From positions 1 through 22,265 of IMG/VR virus record IMGVR_UViG_3300021139_000167: a stretch of 22,265 nt of DNA, one strand, 5' to 3'. Of this stretch, positions 10,950 through 16,956 are shown piece after piece. Numbering within the stretch: position 1 is the stretch's first letter; each line of letters begins with the position of its first letter. The DNA is from a virus. The position numbers and the translations under genes were made by a program. The notes under the pieces were generated by a model. That model ran no database searches. It was not told the origin of the DNA and saw only the letters and a program-made list of their open reading frames with translations.

Positions 10950-11140
10950 AAGAAAAAATCTTAGACCATCTGCTCAAACAAGTGGATGCGAAAGTGAGGA
11001 GCTTGGAAGAGTCCCTCGGTACAGGTGTGGCCAAAGACTACGCTGACTACCAAAAGACGTGCGGACAGATCACTGGTCTTCTGACTGTACGGCTCTACAT
11101 GACAGACCTAAAAAAGAACTTGGAGAATTTTGATGAGTGA
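10946..11140 (+). CDS. Hypothetical small helical protein between portal and co-chaperonin
   Basis: This is a 64-residue protein from MKEKILDHLLKQVDAKVRSL to KKNLENFDE. It is almost fully helical with a heptad-like pattern and likely coiled coil. It overlaps the portal gene as ATGA and the co-chaperonin gene by 8 bases. This position, between portal and co-chaperonin, suggests a morphogenesis accessory or portal-binding role, but I recognise no family and the role is inference. Confidence 0.78.
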   Translation: MKEKILDHLLKQVDAKVRSLEESLGTGVAKDYADYQKTCGQITGLLTVRLYMTDLKKNLENFDE

Positions 11141-11543
11141 AATACTGATCGGCTCAAACCCCGATGATGTGAGTAACGCAACTGTTTTGCCCGAAACGGC
11201 AGAGGAAAAAGCCAAACAACTGCCTGTCCCACAAGGCTATCGCATGTTGGTAGGCATTCCAGACGCAGAAAAAACCTATGAAGGCGGCATTTTGAAAGCT
11301 GGATCAACATTGCACATGGAAGAAGTACTTTCAACCGTGTTTTTTGTGATCAAACAAGGCTCAGATTGCTACAAAGATGAAAAACGCTTTCCCAATGGCC
11401 CATGGTGCAAAGAAGGTGACTTCATTTTGGCTCGTCCAAACACGGGAACACGCCTAAAAATCCATGGTCAAGAGTTCCGATTGATCAATGACGACTCAGT
11501 TGAGGCCGTTGTTGAAGATCCTCGCGGCATCACCCGCGCTTAA
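11133..11543 (+). CDS. GroES-like phage co-chaperonin
   Basis: This is a 136-residue protein. After a flexible N-terminal extension of about 30 residues, VPQGYRMLVGIPD begins a GroES (Cpn10) barrel. KTYEGGILKAGS (about 48-59) matches the mobile loop that docks on GroEL (E. coli GroES has AGGIVLTG), followed by EVLSTVFFVIKQG and a C-terminal strand with EFRLINDDSVEAVVEDP. T4 gp31 is the known example of a phage protein that replaces GroES when folding the capsid protein. The gene lies four genes upstream of the major capsid gene, which supports that role. ATG 11133 has GGAG seven bases before it; the frame could also start at a TTG one codon earlier. Confidence 0.85.
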   Translation: MSEILIGSNPDDVSNATVLPETAEEKAKQLPVPQGYRMLVGIPDAEKTYEGGILKAGSTLHMEEVLSTVFFVIKQGSDCYKDEKRFPNGPWCKEGDFILARPNTGTRLKIHGQEFRLINDDSVEAVVEDPRGITRA

Positions 11544-12519: not shown

Positions 12520-12961
12520 GAATCGCACACCCCGAGAAATTGAAACACGTCAACAATCACAACGACCCAAACAATGGGTTGAACCTGAGTTGTTGCCTGA
12601 ACCAGACAAGGAACCGGGCTTCGCGTACCGCTGGGTCAGGACTTCAATATTGAACAACGTGGATCATCGCAACATCTCTTCCAAACGCAGAGAAGGCTTT
12701 GAACCAGTTCGTATTGAAGAACAGCCAAAGTTTTACATGATGACTGACCCCGATAGTCGTTTTAAAGACAACATCGAGATCGGTGGATTGTTGCTTTGTA
12801 AGATTCCTGAGGAGTTTGTTCAAGCTCGTTTTGACATGGAAAATCGTAAGACCCTTGCCAATGCGGAAGCTGTGGACAACAGTTTCTTGCGTCAGAGTGA
12901 TACTCGGATGCCTCTCTTCCAAGAGCGGAAATCTACAGTGACCTTTGGCCAACGTTCTTAA
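12512..12961 (+). CDS. Hypothetical virion or assembly protein
   Basis: This is a 149-residue protein with a basic, Gln/Pro-rich N-terminus (MAENRTPREIETRQQSQRPK), then YRWVRTSILNNVDHRNISSK, and a more compact part with GGLLLCKIPEEFVQARFDM. It ends with LRQSDTRMPLFQERKSTVTF. It overlaps the scaffold-like gene by 8 bases and precedes two head-type genes. I recall similar proteins at this position in environmental podovirus-like phages but no named family. A head-assembly role is likely by context only. Confidence 0.72.
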   Translation: MAENRTPREIETRQQSQRPKQWVEPELLPEPDKEPGFAYRWVRTSILNNVDHRNISSKRREGFEPVRIEEQPKFYMMTDPDSRFKDNIEIGGLLLCKIPEEFVQARFDMENRKTLANAEAVDNSFLRQSDTRMPLFQERKSTVTFGQRS

Positions 12962-12978
12962 ACTTTTTGGAGATTTAA

Positions 12979-13848
12979 ATGGCATATCCAACAGTCTCGG
13001 CCCCTTACGGCCTCAAGCCTGTTAACCTGATTGGTGGTCGCGTGTATGCGGGTTCTACTCGTATGTTCCCCATCGTGAACGGTTACAGCACTTCGTTGTT
13101 CAACGGTGACGTTGTTCAATTGGGCACCGGTGCTAACATCGGTTGCTTGGTCGCATCGACTCTTGCTTACAACGCTTCTAGCGCTGTGGCAGGTACCATC
13201 GGTGTGTTTGTCGGCGCTGAGTATTCAACTACCGGCGGCCCAATCTATGGCAAAAACCGCTATCAATTCTGGAACGCTTCCACAAGTGCTCCAGATGCAA
13301 TCGGTTATGTTGTGGATGATCCTCAAGCTGTGTTCCAAACCGCTGTTGTGGTTAACCCAGCTGGTACAGGTGGTTCTACTACTATCCAGTACGCTAACCA
13401 AGCGTTTGTTGGCTCTAACGCCTACTACATTGGTAACGCCGCTGGTAACACTGGTAGCACTACCACAGGTGATTCATTGGCTGGCGTGGCAATCTCTGCC
13501 TCTGCTACTGTGTCTACACCTATTACCACTTCTGCAGCTTTCCGTATCGTCGGTATTGTTCCTGCTTCTGCTGTGACTGTTGCCGCTTCTGCTACCAGCT
13601 CAAGCACAACCATCACTTTGGCTGCTTCTAACAGTGCAATCACCCCCGGTATGGCAGTGTCTGGCCCCGGCATCAACCCCGGATCCAACACATACGTGAC
13701 TGCAGTATCAGGCACTTCCGTGACCATCAACACCGCCGTGACTACTGCACAATCGACAGCAGTCAACTTCTCTTTCACTGGCTACCCCGAAGTGCTGGTG
13801 ACTTGGAACGCTGGTTACCATGGTTATAACAACTACACCGGCGTTTAA
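12979..13848 (+). CDS. Virion structural protein with an inserted beta module
   Basis: This is a 289-residue Ser/Thr/Gly-rich beta protein. The N-terminus MAYPTVSAPYGLKPVNLIGG and the C-terminus YPEVLVTWNAGYHGYNNYTG recall a virion protein family of uncultured phages. Between them, about residues 198-267, lies a repeat-like stretch with TTITLAASNSAITPGMAVSGPG and SNTYVTAVSGTSVTI. From memory, that pattern is a widespread beta module in phage structural proteins and looks inserted. GGAG lies ten bases before the start. The gene precedes the major capsid gene, so a head decoration or stabilising role is plausible, not shown. Confidence 0.75.
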   Translation: MAYPTVSAPYGLKPVNLIGGRVYAGSTRMFPIVNGYSTSLFNGDVVQLGTGANIGCLVASTLAYNASSAVAGTIGVFVGAEYSTTGGPIYGKNRYQFWNASTSAPDAIGYVVDDPQAVFQTAVVVNPAGTGGSTTIQYANQAFVGSNAYYIGNAAGNTGSTTTGDSLAGVAISASATVSTPITTSAAFRIVGIVPASAVTVAASATSSSTTITLAASNSAITPGMAVSGPGINPGSNTYVTAVSGTSVTINTAVTTAQSTAVNFSFTGYPEVLVTWNAGYHGYNNYTGV

Positions 13849-13863
13849 TTAAGGAGAACATAA

Positions 13864-14766
13864 ATGGCTATTTCACGTGCACAGTTACTTAAAGAACTGC
13901 TCCCCGGTTTGAACGCATTGTTCGGTCTTGAGTATGGTCGCTACGGCGAAGAACACAAAGAGATCTACGAGATTGAAACCTCTGAACGTTCGTTCGAAGA
14001 AGAAACAAAACTGTCTGGTTTCTCTGCCGCTCCTGTCAAAAACGAAGGTCAAGCCATCGCTTATGACAACGGCCAAGAAGCATGGACAGCTCGTTATAAC
14101 CACGAAACTATCGCTTTGGGCTTCAGCTTGACTGAAGAAGCTATCGAAGATAACTTGTATGACTCATTGTCTGGTCGCTACACCAAAGCCTTGGCTCGTG
14201 CTATGGCTTACACCAAGCAAGTCAAAGCAGCTTCAGTTTTGAACAACGGTTTTAACAGCCAATTCACCTACGGTGACGGCCAACCTTTGTTCTCTTCTGC
14301 TCACCCGCTGATCTCTGGTGGCACCAACGCCAACACTCCATCTACCCCTGCCGACTTGAATGAAACAGCGTTGGAAAACGCCGTGATTCAAATCGCTGCT
14401 TGGACTGATGAACGTGGTCTGTTGATCGCTGCTAAACCCAAGAAGTTGATTGTTCCCCCAGCATTGCAGTTCGTTGCAACTCGTTTGCTCGAAACTAAAC
14501 TGCGCGTTGGTACAAACAACAACGACATTAACGCTATCGAGAACAATGGTTCGATCCCTGAAGGTTATGTGATCAACCACTTCTTGACAGCTAACAATGC
14601 TTGGTTCTTGACAACTGACGTGCCTAACGGTTTGAAAATGTTCGTTCGTACACCATTGCAAAACAGCATGGACGGCGACTTTGATACCGGTAACGTGCGT
14701 TACAAGTCTCGTGAACGTTACTCCTTCGGTGTCTCTGACCCCTTGGGTGCATACGCTTCTTATTAA
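13864..14766 (+). CDS. Major capsid protein
   Basis: This is a 300-residue protein: MAISRAQLLKELLPGLNALF, then TKLSGFSAAPVKNEGQAIAY, EEAIEDNLYDSLSGRYTKAL, a segment GDGQPLFSSAHPLI, and the end DPLGAYASY. This is the profile of an HK97-fold major head protein related to Mu-type head subunits. Length fits a capsid without an N-terminal scaffold domain, in agreement with the separate scaffold-like gene. AAGGAGAACATAA precedes the ATG. The codon use is the C-ending, highly biased type often seen in strongly expressed genes. A strong terminator follows, so this gene ends its transcription unit. Confidence 0.88.
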   Translation: MAISRAQLLKELLPGLNALFGLEYGRYGEEHKEIYEIETSERSFEEETKLSGFSAAPVKNEGQAIAYDNGQEAWTARYNHETIALGFSLTEEAIEDNLYDSLSGRYTKALARAMAYTKQVKAASVLNNGFNSQFTYGDGQPLFSSAHPLISGGTNANTPSTPADLNETALENAVIQIAAWTDERGLLIAAKPKKLIVPPALQFVATRLLETKLRVGTNNNDINAIENNGSIPEGYVINHFLTANNAWFLTTDVPNGLKMFVRTPLQNSMDGDFDTGNVRYKSRERYSFGVSDPLGAYASY

Positions 14767-14782
14767 TCTTTGGATTAGTAAA

Positions 14783-14810
14783 AAATCAGGGGGCTTCGGC
14801 CCCCTTTTTT
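14783..14810 (+). terminator. Rho-independent terminator after the major capsid gene
   Basis: GGGGGC (14789-14794), the loop TTCG and GCCCCC (14799-14804) form a perfect 6-bp GC stem followed by six T residues. An upstream A-run makes it likely to work in part on the other strand too. It closes the capsid transcription unit, and a new promoter begins two bases later. Confidence 0.9.
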
Positions 14811-14811
14811 G

Positions 14812-14839
14812 TTGACAGCAACCAAAAATAGTGTATATT
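14812..14839 (+). promoter_or_regulatory. Strong sigma70-type promoter
   Basis: A perfect -35 TTGACA (14812-14817), a 16-nt spacer and the -10 TATATT (14834-14839) are present. Initiation is expected near 14846, giving a leader of about 80 nt before the gene at 14928. It lies directly after the capsid terminator, so the downstream gene is transcribed as its own unit. Confidence 0.75.
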
Positions 14840-14845
14840 TAAAGT

Positions 14846-14927
14846 GTCTGGGATTTCACTTGTACCGGACTGGCCCAGCAGACGATGCAACGATTGGTAC
14901 AAGTACTTTTGCATAAGGACTTTTGTC
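14846..14927 (+). ncRNA. Structured 5' leader of the gene at 14928
   Basis: This leader of about 80 nt contains two possible pairings. ACTTGTACC (14858-14866) can pair with GGTACAAGT (14896-14904), giving nine base pairs. ATGCAA (14885-14890) can pair with TTGCAT (14909-14914). The second crosses the first, so they form a pseudoknot or exclude each other. The TTGCAT arm touches the ribosome binding site AAGGAC (14915-14920). The 4-nt linker at 14905-14908 is short for a full pseudoknot across nine base pairs, so a switch between two folds may be more realistic. The pairings are read from the sequence; control of translation is inference. Confidence 0.5.
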
Positions 14928-15638
14928 ATGGCACGTTCCACCTTCTCCGGCCCAGTTCTTTCGGGCGATAACCGTTTTGGTCCAGTACGCAACGTCGGAT
15001 ACACCGACTTGGTTCAAACAGCTCTCTTGGATTTCTCAGTAACTTCTGCCGGCGCTAACTATGGCGGTGCCTCTGGTCAGTTTGTTGCTTCAAACGGTAT
15101 CCCCAATAGCAACGCTGTGATCTACACACCCCAAAGCGGCGTGTTTAGCAACACAGGACCTACTGCTGCATCAGCTCCTACTGCGGACGCTACCAACACT
15201 GTGTATCGTGGCGTGGTGTTTTATCTCCCCTACAGCTCCAACATCACTGATGTAATCTTGGACGTTGGTACCATTCCAAAAGACAACGCTGGTACACCTG
15301 TTGCTGTTAGCGCAATCCAGCCTTACGTTTCAAATAACTTCGCAACATCTACTGGTGTGTACGCAACATTTGCGAACATCTCTAGCCCTGCTGCTCAACG
15401 TTACACTGGAACATATGTTGGTTCGCAATTAACAAACAGCAATGCAACATTGCAAGACTTCCAAAACTTGCAGCCCGGTCAAGAGCCAGCATGGTTCTCT
15501 CAAGTGGTTGTGACATTGAAGATGACTACAACTGCAGCTGGTTTGTCTTCTGGTCAAGTTGAAGTGACTATTCGCTACAACCCAAATGACATGAACATTG
15601 GTAATAGCACAACTTACCCATACGGTAACTTTGACTAA
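14928..15638 (+). CDS. Virion structural protein, independently transcribed
   Basis: This is a 236-residue Ser/Thr/Asn-rich beta protein. The N-terminus MARSTFSGPVLSGDNRFGPV and central VVFYLPYSSNITDVILDVGT recall structural proteins of uncultured marine and freshwater phages; the exact part is unknown. ATG 14928 has AAGGAC seven bases before it; an in-frame ATG at 14844 lies at the transcript start and would cut through the leader, so it is rejected. The gene is a single unit with its own promoter and leader and is bracketed by two near-identical terminators. That suggests expression at a level different from the capsid gene, perhaps a decoration or tail protein (inference). Confidence 0.78.
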   Translation: MARSTFSGPVLSGDNRFGPVRNVGYTDLVQTALLDFSVTSAGANYGGASGQFVASNGIPNSNAVIYTPQSGVFSNTGPTAASAPTADATNTVYRGVVFYLPYSSNITDVILDVGTIPKDNAGTPVAVSAIQPYVSNNFATSTGVYATFANISSPAAQRYTGTYVGSQLTNSNATLQDFQNLQPGQEPAWFSQVVVTLKMTTTAAGLSSGQVEVTIRYNPNDMNIGNSTTYPYGNFD

Positions 15639-15647
15639 TTAATCCCG

Positions 15648-15668
15648 GGGGGCTTTGGCCCCCTTTTT
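15648..15668 (+). terminator. Rho-independent terminator, near copy of the one at 14783
   Basis: GGGGGC (15648-15653), the loop TTTG and GCCCCC (15658-15663) form a 6-bp stem followed by five T residues. It differs from the capsid terminator by one loop base. It ends the unit at 14928; the next gene begins twenty bases on and has no clear promoter of its own, so some read-through is likely. Confidence 0.85.
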
Positions 15669-15687
15669 GAAATTCAAGGAGATTAAT

Positions 15688-16461
15688 ATGGCGCAAAGTC
15701 CAAATGGAATTCCAAGCACCAATAACTCGGTCAATTCGATCTCACGTCAAGCCAAATACGAACCATTTGACTTGCAAGTAGCTCGTGGTCAGATTTATGG
15801 GCATAGTGTTTTAAACATCTATGGCTATCAAGCATCGGTAGGTACATCATTTGTTCCTGTATGGGAAGGTAACACTTCTTATACTTACCCTTCATCTGCT
15901 GCTCAAATGCACCTTGTTAGTTCTGTTAACACTGGTGCTGATGCGACTGCGTTGATAACTATCAACGGTTTAGACGCAAACTACAACCAGATTTCTGAAA
16001 CTATTAAGTTGAACGGTACAACGACTGTAACTACAGTCAAATCTTATTTACGTATCAATAGTATGGCAGTCACTAGCGGTGCTCCTACTGGAAACATCAC
16101 GTTAAAAGATACGTCAGATACGAATTTGTACGCAGAAATTGCTGCTGGTAATGGACGTACCTTAATGGGTATTTACACTGTACCAGCAGGATATACGTTT
16201 TATTTGAGCCGTATTGATATCAATACCAGCCTGAATGCGAACCCAGCAGGTTATGCAACGTATCAAAACTATCAAATAAGTAGTTCAGGCGTTCCAACCG
16301 TTACTATTGTTGCTCCATTCACAAATAACTATCACACACAACGAGTGATGCCCAGGCTTGTTCCTGAGAAAACTGACATCCAATTGCAAGCAAAAGTTAG
16401 TACTGGTACTGCGGCCTTGACGGTTTCGCAAGAAGGTTACTTAATTTCCAACGGTAATTGA
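15688..16461 (+). CDS. Virion structural protein
   Basis: This is a 257-residue beta-rich protein with a flexible N-terminus (MAQSPNGIPSTNNSVNSISR). The repeating core has FDLQVARGQIYGHSVLNIYG, MHLVSSVNTGADATALITIN, GRTLMGIYTVPAGYTFYLSR and the end TVSQEGYLIS. From memory this resembles structural proteins of many environmental phages that share the VARGQI and IYTVPAGYTFYL motifs. A fibre- or decoration-like role fits the fold and composition, unproven. ATG 15688 follows AAGGAGATTAAT; the in-frame start at 15655 lies inside the terminator and is rejected. Confidence 0.8.
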   Translation: MAQSPNGIPSTNNSVNSISRQAKYEPFDLQVARGQIYGHSVLNIYGYQASVGTSFVPVWEGNTSYTYPSSAAQMHLVSSVNTGADATALITINGLDANYNQISETIKLNGTTTVTTVKSYLRINSMAVTSGAPTGNITLKDTSDTNLYAEIAAGNGRTLMGIYTVPAGYTFYLSRIDINTSLNANPAGYATYQNYQISSSGVPTVTIVAPFTNNYHTQRVMPRLVPEKTDIQLQAKVSTGTAALTVSQEGYLISNGN

Positions 16462-16463
16462 TC

Positions 16464-16709
16464 ATGGCTAAAAGTCCAGCATGGCAAAGGAAAGAAGGCA
16501 AGAATCCAAATGGCGGCTTGAACGCCAAAGGGCGAGCCTCCGCAAAGAAGGAGGGGATGAATTTAAAACCCCCTCAACCCGAAGGCGGCAAGCGTCGGGA
16601 CTCTTTTTGCGCGAGGATGGAAGGGATGAAGAAGAAATTGACTTCGACCAAGACAGCCAAAGACCCAGACAGCCGGATTAACAAAAGCCTAAGGGCTTGG
16701 AATTGTTGA
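16464..16709 (+). CDS. DUF6321-like small basic protein
   Basis: This is an 81-residue Lys/Arg-rich protein: MAKSPAWQRKEGKNPNGGLN, then GRASAKKEGMNLKPPQPEGG, RRDSFCARMEGMKKKLTSTK, and the end DPDSRINKSLRAWNC. This pattern matches my memory of DUF6321, a conserved phage family of unknown function. It has two cysteines and strong positive charge, which fits DNA or acidic-protein contact inside the virion (inference). The start at 16464 lies two bases after the previous stop, and the next gene begins two bases after its own stop. Confidence 0.82.
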   Translation: MAKSPAWQRKEGKNPNGGLNAKGRASAKKEGMNLKPPQPEGGKRRDSFCARMEGMKKKLTSTKTAKDPDSRINKSLRAWNC

Positions 16710-16710
16710 T

Positions 16711-16956
16711 ATGGAAATGCAGATCTGGAACGTTTTGTTGACAACATTCATCGGGTTGCTTGCTTGGAACCTGAAGGAAAAGTCATCAGAATTGAATCGT
16801 ATTACTATCTTGCTGAATCGGACTCGGGAAGAAATTGCTCGTGACAATGTGACGCAAGCAGAGATGGACAAAATTGTTGCTCATATAGACAGCCGTTTTG
16901 ACAAGCTCAACGACAAGCTGGATGCTTTTATTAGGGAGTCTCGCAGTGCCCTCTAA
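16711..16956 (+). CDS. Small single-pass membrane protein with coiled coil
   Basis: This is an 81-residue protein. Residues 5-20 (IWNVLLTTFIGLLAWN) form one probable membrane helix. The rest is a charged coiled coil (about 21-78), including LNRTREEIARDNVTQAEMDK and HIDSRFDKLNDKLDAFIRES. Such short membrane-plus-coil proteins in structural operons are often called holin- or spanin-like, but the lysis role is not shown: no endolysin is seen nearby. It could also anchor in the host membrane during DNA entry. It overlaps the next gene by 11 bases. Confidence 0.75.
   Translation: MEMQIWNVLLTTFIGLLAWNLKEKSSELNRITILLNRTREEIARDNVTQAEMDKIVAHIDSRFDKLNDKLDAFIRESRSAL

Follow-up and report, generated by a model that had tools for sequence, protein, structure and literature searches.

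The stretch of DNA analysed here, hereafter the window, covers 22,265 nucleotides of the 22-kb virus contig IMGVR_UViG_3300021139_000167, which encodes a terminase and a portal protein and is part of a Mu-gpT-type podovirus genome. The Mu-gpT-type major head (capsid) protein gene lies at 13864-14766, in the same record as these two genes. It is followed on the plus strand by an intrinsic terminator-like hairpin with a T-run (14788-14812), a predicted promoter (14812-14839) and, from an ATG at 14928, the gene of a 236-aa cement-protein candidate (14928-15638). The predicted promoter appears strong and sigma-70-like: it joins TTGACA (14812-14817) to TATATT (14834-14839) through a 16-nt spacer, agrees with the consensus at 11 of 12 positions and is the sole promoter-like site within 12900-16800. 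Because another terminator-like hairpin (15647-15668, plus strand) stands behind the cement gene, this gene would probably be expressed as a single-gene transcript. The hairpins at 14788-14812 and 15647-15668, which flank it, are closely alike and of the GGGGGCTTCGGCCCCC type. Elsewhere in the window, ORF 11130-11543 occupies the slot that holds a GroES-like co-chaperonin in named relatives, a likeness by position, and a scan of the whole window found no tRNA or tmRNA.

Between the predicted promoter and the 14928 gene lies a leader RNA of about 67 nt that is real, conserved and structured, and we regard the existence of its fold as nearly certain. The leader extends from about +2 of the predicted transcript up to the Shine-Dalgarno (SD) sequence, in the order T1a, P2a, hairpin A, hairpin B, P2b, T2b and AAGGA. 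Its architecture combines a single 9-bp stem, P2, with two pseudoknots, T1 and T2, each of which crosses P2. All elements are on the plus strand. P2 pairs ACTTGTACC (P2a, 14858-14866) with GGTACAAGT (P2b, 14896-14904). The 5' strand of T1, CUGGG (DNA CTGGG; T1a, 14848-14852), lies at about +2 and pairs with CCCAG (T1b, 14874-14878) inside the loop of hairpin A, CUG[GCCCAG]CAG (14870-14881; stem 14870-14872 with 14879-14881). T2 pairs the loop of hairpin B, AUGCAA (T2a, 14885-14890), with UUGCAU (DNA TTGCAT; T2b, 14909-14914), hairpin B being CG[AUGCAA]CG (14883-14892) with a 2-bp stem (14883-14884 with 14891-14892). T2b stops directly 5' of the SD, AAGGA (14915-14919), which in the window is itself unpaired, the paired part being its 5' neighbour only; the 3' end of P2 sits 10 nt upstream of it. 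The SD is the same in 81 of 81 aligned leaders, many of which were found with a search pattern that included AAGG.

An earlier, sequence-only reading had proposed the 9-bp pairing and a 6-bp pairing crossing it, next to the ribosome site of the 14928 gene. Both are perfect and lie at the positions it gave, with T2b ending at 14914 and AAGGA starting at 14915; the T1 pseudoknot and hairpins A and B were absent from it. It had held a full pseudoknot to be strained and suggested that the two pairings may alternate and so set translation on or off. In a classical H-type knot such strain would be a fair concern; here T2a is located in a flexible 29-nt loop, and by rough geometry the 4-nt linker can reach. 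No base belongs to both P2 and T2, the whole freshwater clade retains both, and the linkers are of nearly constant length, so that the two helices appear to belong to a single double pseudoknot. Their alternation was dropped for the window's clade on the grounds that no base is shared and both are conserved.

Folded without pseudoknots, the region has an ordinary energy (z = +1.1). The fold is thus invisible to a standard folding screen, and the evidence for it depends on the crossing pairs and on comparison. Of 1000 dinucleotide shuffles of the region 14846-14927, four contained a Watson-Crick helix of 9 bp, and none had such a helix together with a crossing 3'-side helix of at least 6 bp. 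A four-helix test, in which P2, hairpin A, T1 and T2 were all required, was passed by 97/115 freshwater leaders and 104/169 leaders of a wide set, and by 0/1420 shuffles; among the wide-set leaders that did not pass are short ones and ones of the Mu-gpT-DE type. Among 872 other SD-preceded gene starts, three passed, all of them family members whose peptide, MATTNFSGP, had slipped past the exclusion.

Comparison draws on a large number of relatives. A protein search returned 80 relatives, with the leader in nearly all. The loops are almost identical in the IMG/VR contigs, at least 120 in number, that a leader pattern search returned, and 115 distinct leaders were collected in all. In relatives the leader stands before the gene next after the capsid gene, and this gene, where readable, belongs to one family, the sole exception being L131, which has a different gene. 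As the pattern scan had fixed the T1 and T2 letters in the freshwater set, the wide set was collected by protein, in searches that started from the cement-like proteins of DSL-LC04, HTVC027P and L131. It contributed 240 additional loci, many of which (more than 100) keep the architecture although their letters differ. The leader was recognized by eye in the cultured Pelagibacter phages HTVC023P (L205) and HTVC027P (L203), and by eye and with a covariance model in phage DSL-LC04 (L204); the model, made without pseudoknots, gave one strong match per record. A scan of GTDB genomes matched two MAG contigs only, and blastn for phages with the leader returned just short, weak, terminator-sided matches. 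Judged from these sequences, the leader family appears widespread across lake and ocean phages, numbering hundreds.

Two relatives, L015 and L075, keep the cement gene and have no leader. Both have a GIY-YIG-homing-endonuclease-like gene (YIGIYKIRNKVTGKCYVGQS) between the capsid and cement genes (L015:1800-2387 and L075:1988-2575), the stop codon of which shares one base with the cement start codon. A homing endonuclease is annotated in the capsid-cement slot of GB2A (L208) too. Shorter leaders, of still other kinds, are found in L226, L236 and L251.

The compensatory changes whose absence the sequence-only reading had named as evidence against itself are present. In 81 freshwater leaders aligned with MAFFT, structure not being given as input, 96.7% of cells pair. 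Changes on both sides were seen at 9/9 pairs of P2, 2/3 of hairpin A and 2/2 of hairpin B, and the covariation score was 0.322 vs 0.122 shuffled, slid versions reaching at most 0.073. In this set hairpin A is paired in 100% of cells and hairpin B in 96%, with CG/UA and GC/AU covarying in the latter. Within the freshwater clade T1 and T2 showed no covariation across these 81 leaders, many of which had been fetched by a pattern with the T1/T2 letters. A sister set of 52 leaders, fetched by protein, has both-side changes in three pairs of T1, two pairs of T2 and 8/8 of P2, with a score of 0.444 vs 0.188; hairpin A covaries as well. The wide set contains 24 distinct helices for T1 and 24 for T2. 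There, complementarity with the leader's own partner amounted to 266 for T1 vs a maximum of 217 in 20,000 permutations, and to 462 vs 359 for T2, also in 20,000. For this permutation, complementarity served to place P2 and hairpin A but not T1 and T2, and each distinct loop was used once, which reduces relatedness without removing it; the helix parse was greedy and plainly wrong in a few examples, L258 and L295 among them. Covariation of P2 and hairpin A is thus seen within clades, that of T1 and T2 across lineages.

In the sister clade (alignment A2, L371-L449 set) a local 5' hairpin, P0, was also observed, columns 10-13 pairing with 21-24. Its variants are CCGG..CCGG, CUGG..CCAG and CCGA..UCGG, with 94% paired and two pairs covarying. 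P0 uses the same 5' strand as T1 and excludes it, which makes a two-state switch a candidate in that clade. This either-or pairing is confined to the sister clade and was not seen in the window.

The 14928 gene product is probably a capsid cement (decoration) protein, an assignment by position and fold, not proof. Its gene is the first one 3' of the Mu-gpT-type major capsid gene, in a slot that is annotated 'cement protein' in DSL-LC04. An AlphaFold model made with 60 relatives as input is beta-rich, with a mean pLDDT of 87.8. Foldseek with this model returned nothing significant; its weak matches include capsid chains of GP4 (E 0.045) and Pam1 (E 0.073). By sequence, the protein had no match in PHROG or the PDB, nor had the capsid protein in PDB searches, and tblastn of the cement protein found none of the named phages, for which the capsid protein served as the bridge. 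The PHROG label 'Rz-like spanin' for sister cement proteins was rejected, the match being weak and contradicted by position. The cement families behind the leader have only a short N-terminus in common, M..[ST]TF.GP (14928-14954 in the window), and the L131 family has THLGPW. This common N-terminus may anchor the protein to the capsid; for Pam1, contact between an extended N-terminal loop and the E-loop of the capsid protein is described (PMC9698820). In the GP4 head, capsid and cement protein are each present in 540 copies (PMC9698820).

The suggestion that the RNA is undescribed holds as far as the searches reach. No Rfam 15 family matches the window at the gathering threshold, and the loose-threshold matches in the region were weak and rejected as chance or terminator. 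Searches of the literature on HTVC023P-type phages and on pelagiphage transcriptomes did not find the leader mentioned. We therefore call it uncatalogued in the sense that Rfam 15 has no entry for it and the literature searched gave no description, Rfam not being the whole literature.

Among 20 diverse relatives searched against Rfam, L221 alone matched, as Mu-gpT-DE (RF03012). The same tool recovered this RNA at L207:3996-4048 (CRP-902) and L221:2450-2503, and gave no match to it in the window, whether at the gathering threshold or with E allowed up to 10. Mu-gpT-DE, the nearest of the named RNAs, occupies the same slot, between the gpT-type capsid gene and the next gene, and ends at the start codon. 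It fronts homologous proteins (CRP-902 (L207) vs DSL-LC04, 71% identity; L221, 77%), and by eye it shares with the new leader a hairpin followed by AC...GAC, a CUG-AC...GAC signature. However, it measures 53 nt, the 3' strand of its stem is the CAGG of the SD, and it lacks T1, whereas the SD of the window leader is AAGGA, preceded by T2b, and no stem contains a CAGG SD. Because homologous cement proteins stand behind both, Mu-gpT-DE and the new leader replace each other in one slot; common ancestry of the two is a guess. No description of the function of Mu-gpT-DE was found in the literature searched.

Pseudoknots at the SD are familiar from the S4 alpha-operon and S15 rpsO leaders, which serve proteins needed in fixed ratio. 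These differ from the present leader, which has no sequence or model match to them and precedes no ribosomal protein gene. A leader pseudoknot is likewise implicated in translational control of gene 32 of T4, a high-copy phage protein, but the fold and gene are others, and gp32 binds nucleic acid; for the cement protein no part in RNA binding is known.

The best explanation, to which we give a probability of about 0.65, is that of a cis-acting leader limiting the initiation of cement-protein translation. The sequence-only reading is borne out in so far as the leader is a conserved pseudoknotted RNA beside a ribosome-binding site among phage structural genes. A conserved, covarying structure lies between the promoter and the SD of one gene, the placement expected of a cis-regulatory leader. 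T1a lies 7-9 nt after the -10 element in 100 of the 122 upstream regions with a scored -10, so that the fold should begin at about +2. At the other end, T2b adjoins the SD directly in 138 of 212 scored members and overlaps it in another 62, as in CUAGG(AGG) of HTVC027P-like phages and UGAGG of L414. Transcription would begin just upstream of CUGGG, and the leader would fold compactly, with P2 formed and the loop of hairpin A reaching back to the 5' end (T1). The loop of hairpin B would then pair forward with the strand before or overlapping the SD (T2). With T2 formed, ribosome access would be limited; with T2 open, the SD would be free, and T2 is in this way the probable element of control. 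The fold would tune or switch initiation on the mRNA of a protein that is required in roughly as many copies as the capsid protein. Any modulator would probably be a protein and not a metabolite, the candidates being the capsid or cement protein of the phage and an RNA-binding protein of the host. Points against this explanation are the invariance of T1 and T2 in the freshwater clade, the unpaired SD of the window, and the presence of the gene without the leader in L015 and L075. Across clades, moreover, conserved unpaired bases are few, so that the fold could act with no regulator at all. Perhaps the leader also affects the life of the mRNA.

An effect on mRNA life is the whole of the next explanation, which we consider unlikely: a pseudoknot at the transcript start would block decay by RppH and RNase E or by a 5' exonuclease, giving a long-lived mRNA for an abundant virion protein, with the closeness to the SD secondary. 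The location of T1a at about +2 of the predicted transcript, the terminators on both sides of the cement gene and the high copy number of the product (540 per GP4 head; PMC9698820) are consistent with it. Yet an ordinary 5' hairpin would be enough for such a purpose, and the adjoining or overlapping of the SD by T2 in 200 of 212 SD-scored members is left unexplained.

Compact pseudoknots at the SD are found in the preQ1 and SAM-II classes of riboswitches, a resemblance that might suggest control of the cement gene by a metabolite or an ion. We judge this very improbable, since no Rfam riboswitch matches even at E up to 10, and few unpaired letters are conserved across clades (by eye, AC after hairpin A and GA(C/U) before P2b). 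Moreover, the target is a virion gene and not a metabolic one, and neither the pocket nor the target of a riboswitch was found. As for a DNA-level element or a chance arrangement, the unremarkable pseudoknot-free folding energy would agree with it, but it is scarcely credible for an element that is always in sense, directional and placed from promoter to SD, with compensatory changes in its helices and no equivalent among shuffles.

Translational control by the leader might, in a bolder and rather doubtful form, be the work of a new class of RNA switch that senses capsid assembly through free capsid or cement protein and matches the supply of cement to that of capsid, with Mu-gpT-DE as a reduced relative. 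If true, such an assembly-sensing class would span very abundant lake and ocean phages. The leader itself appears to represent an RNA family that is widespread, strongly supported by comparison and missing from Rfam. Mu-gpT-DE gains a context from it, as sister phages have either of these two leaders in that slot. The leader also offers a way to test how phages keep cement and capsid protein in balance.
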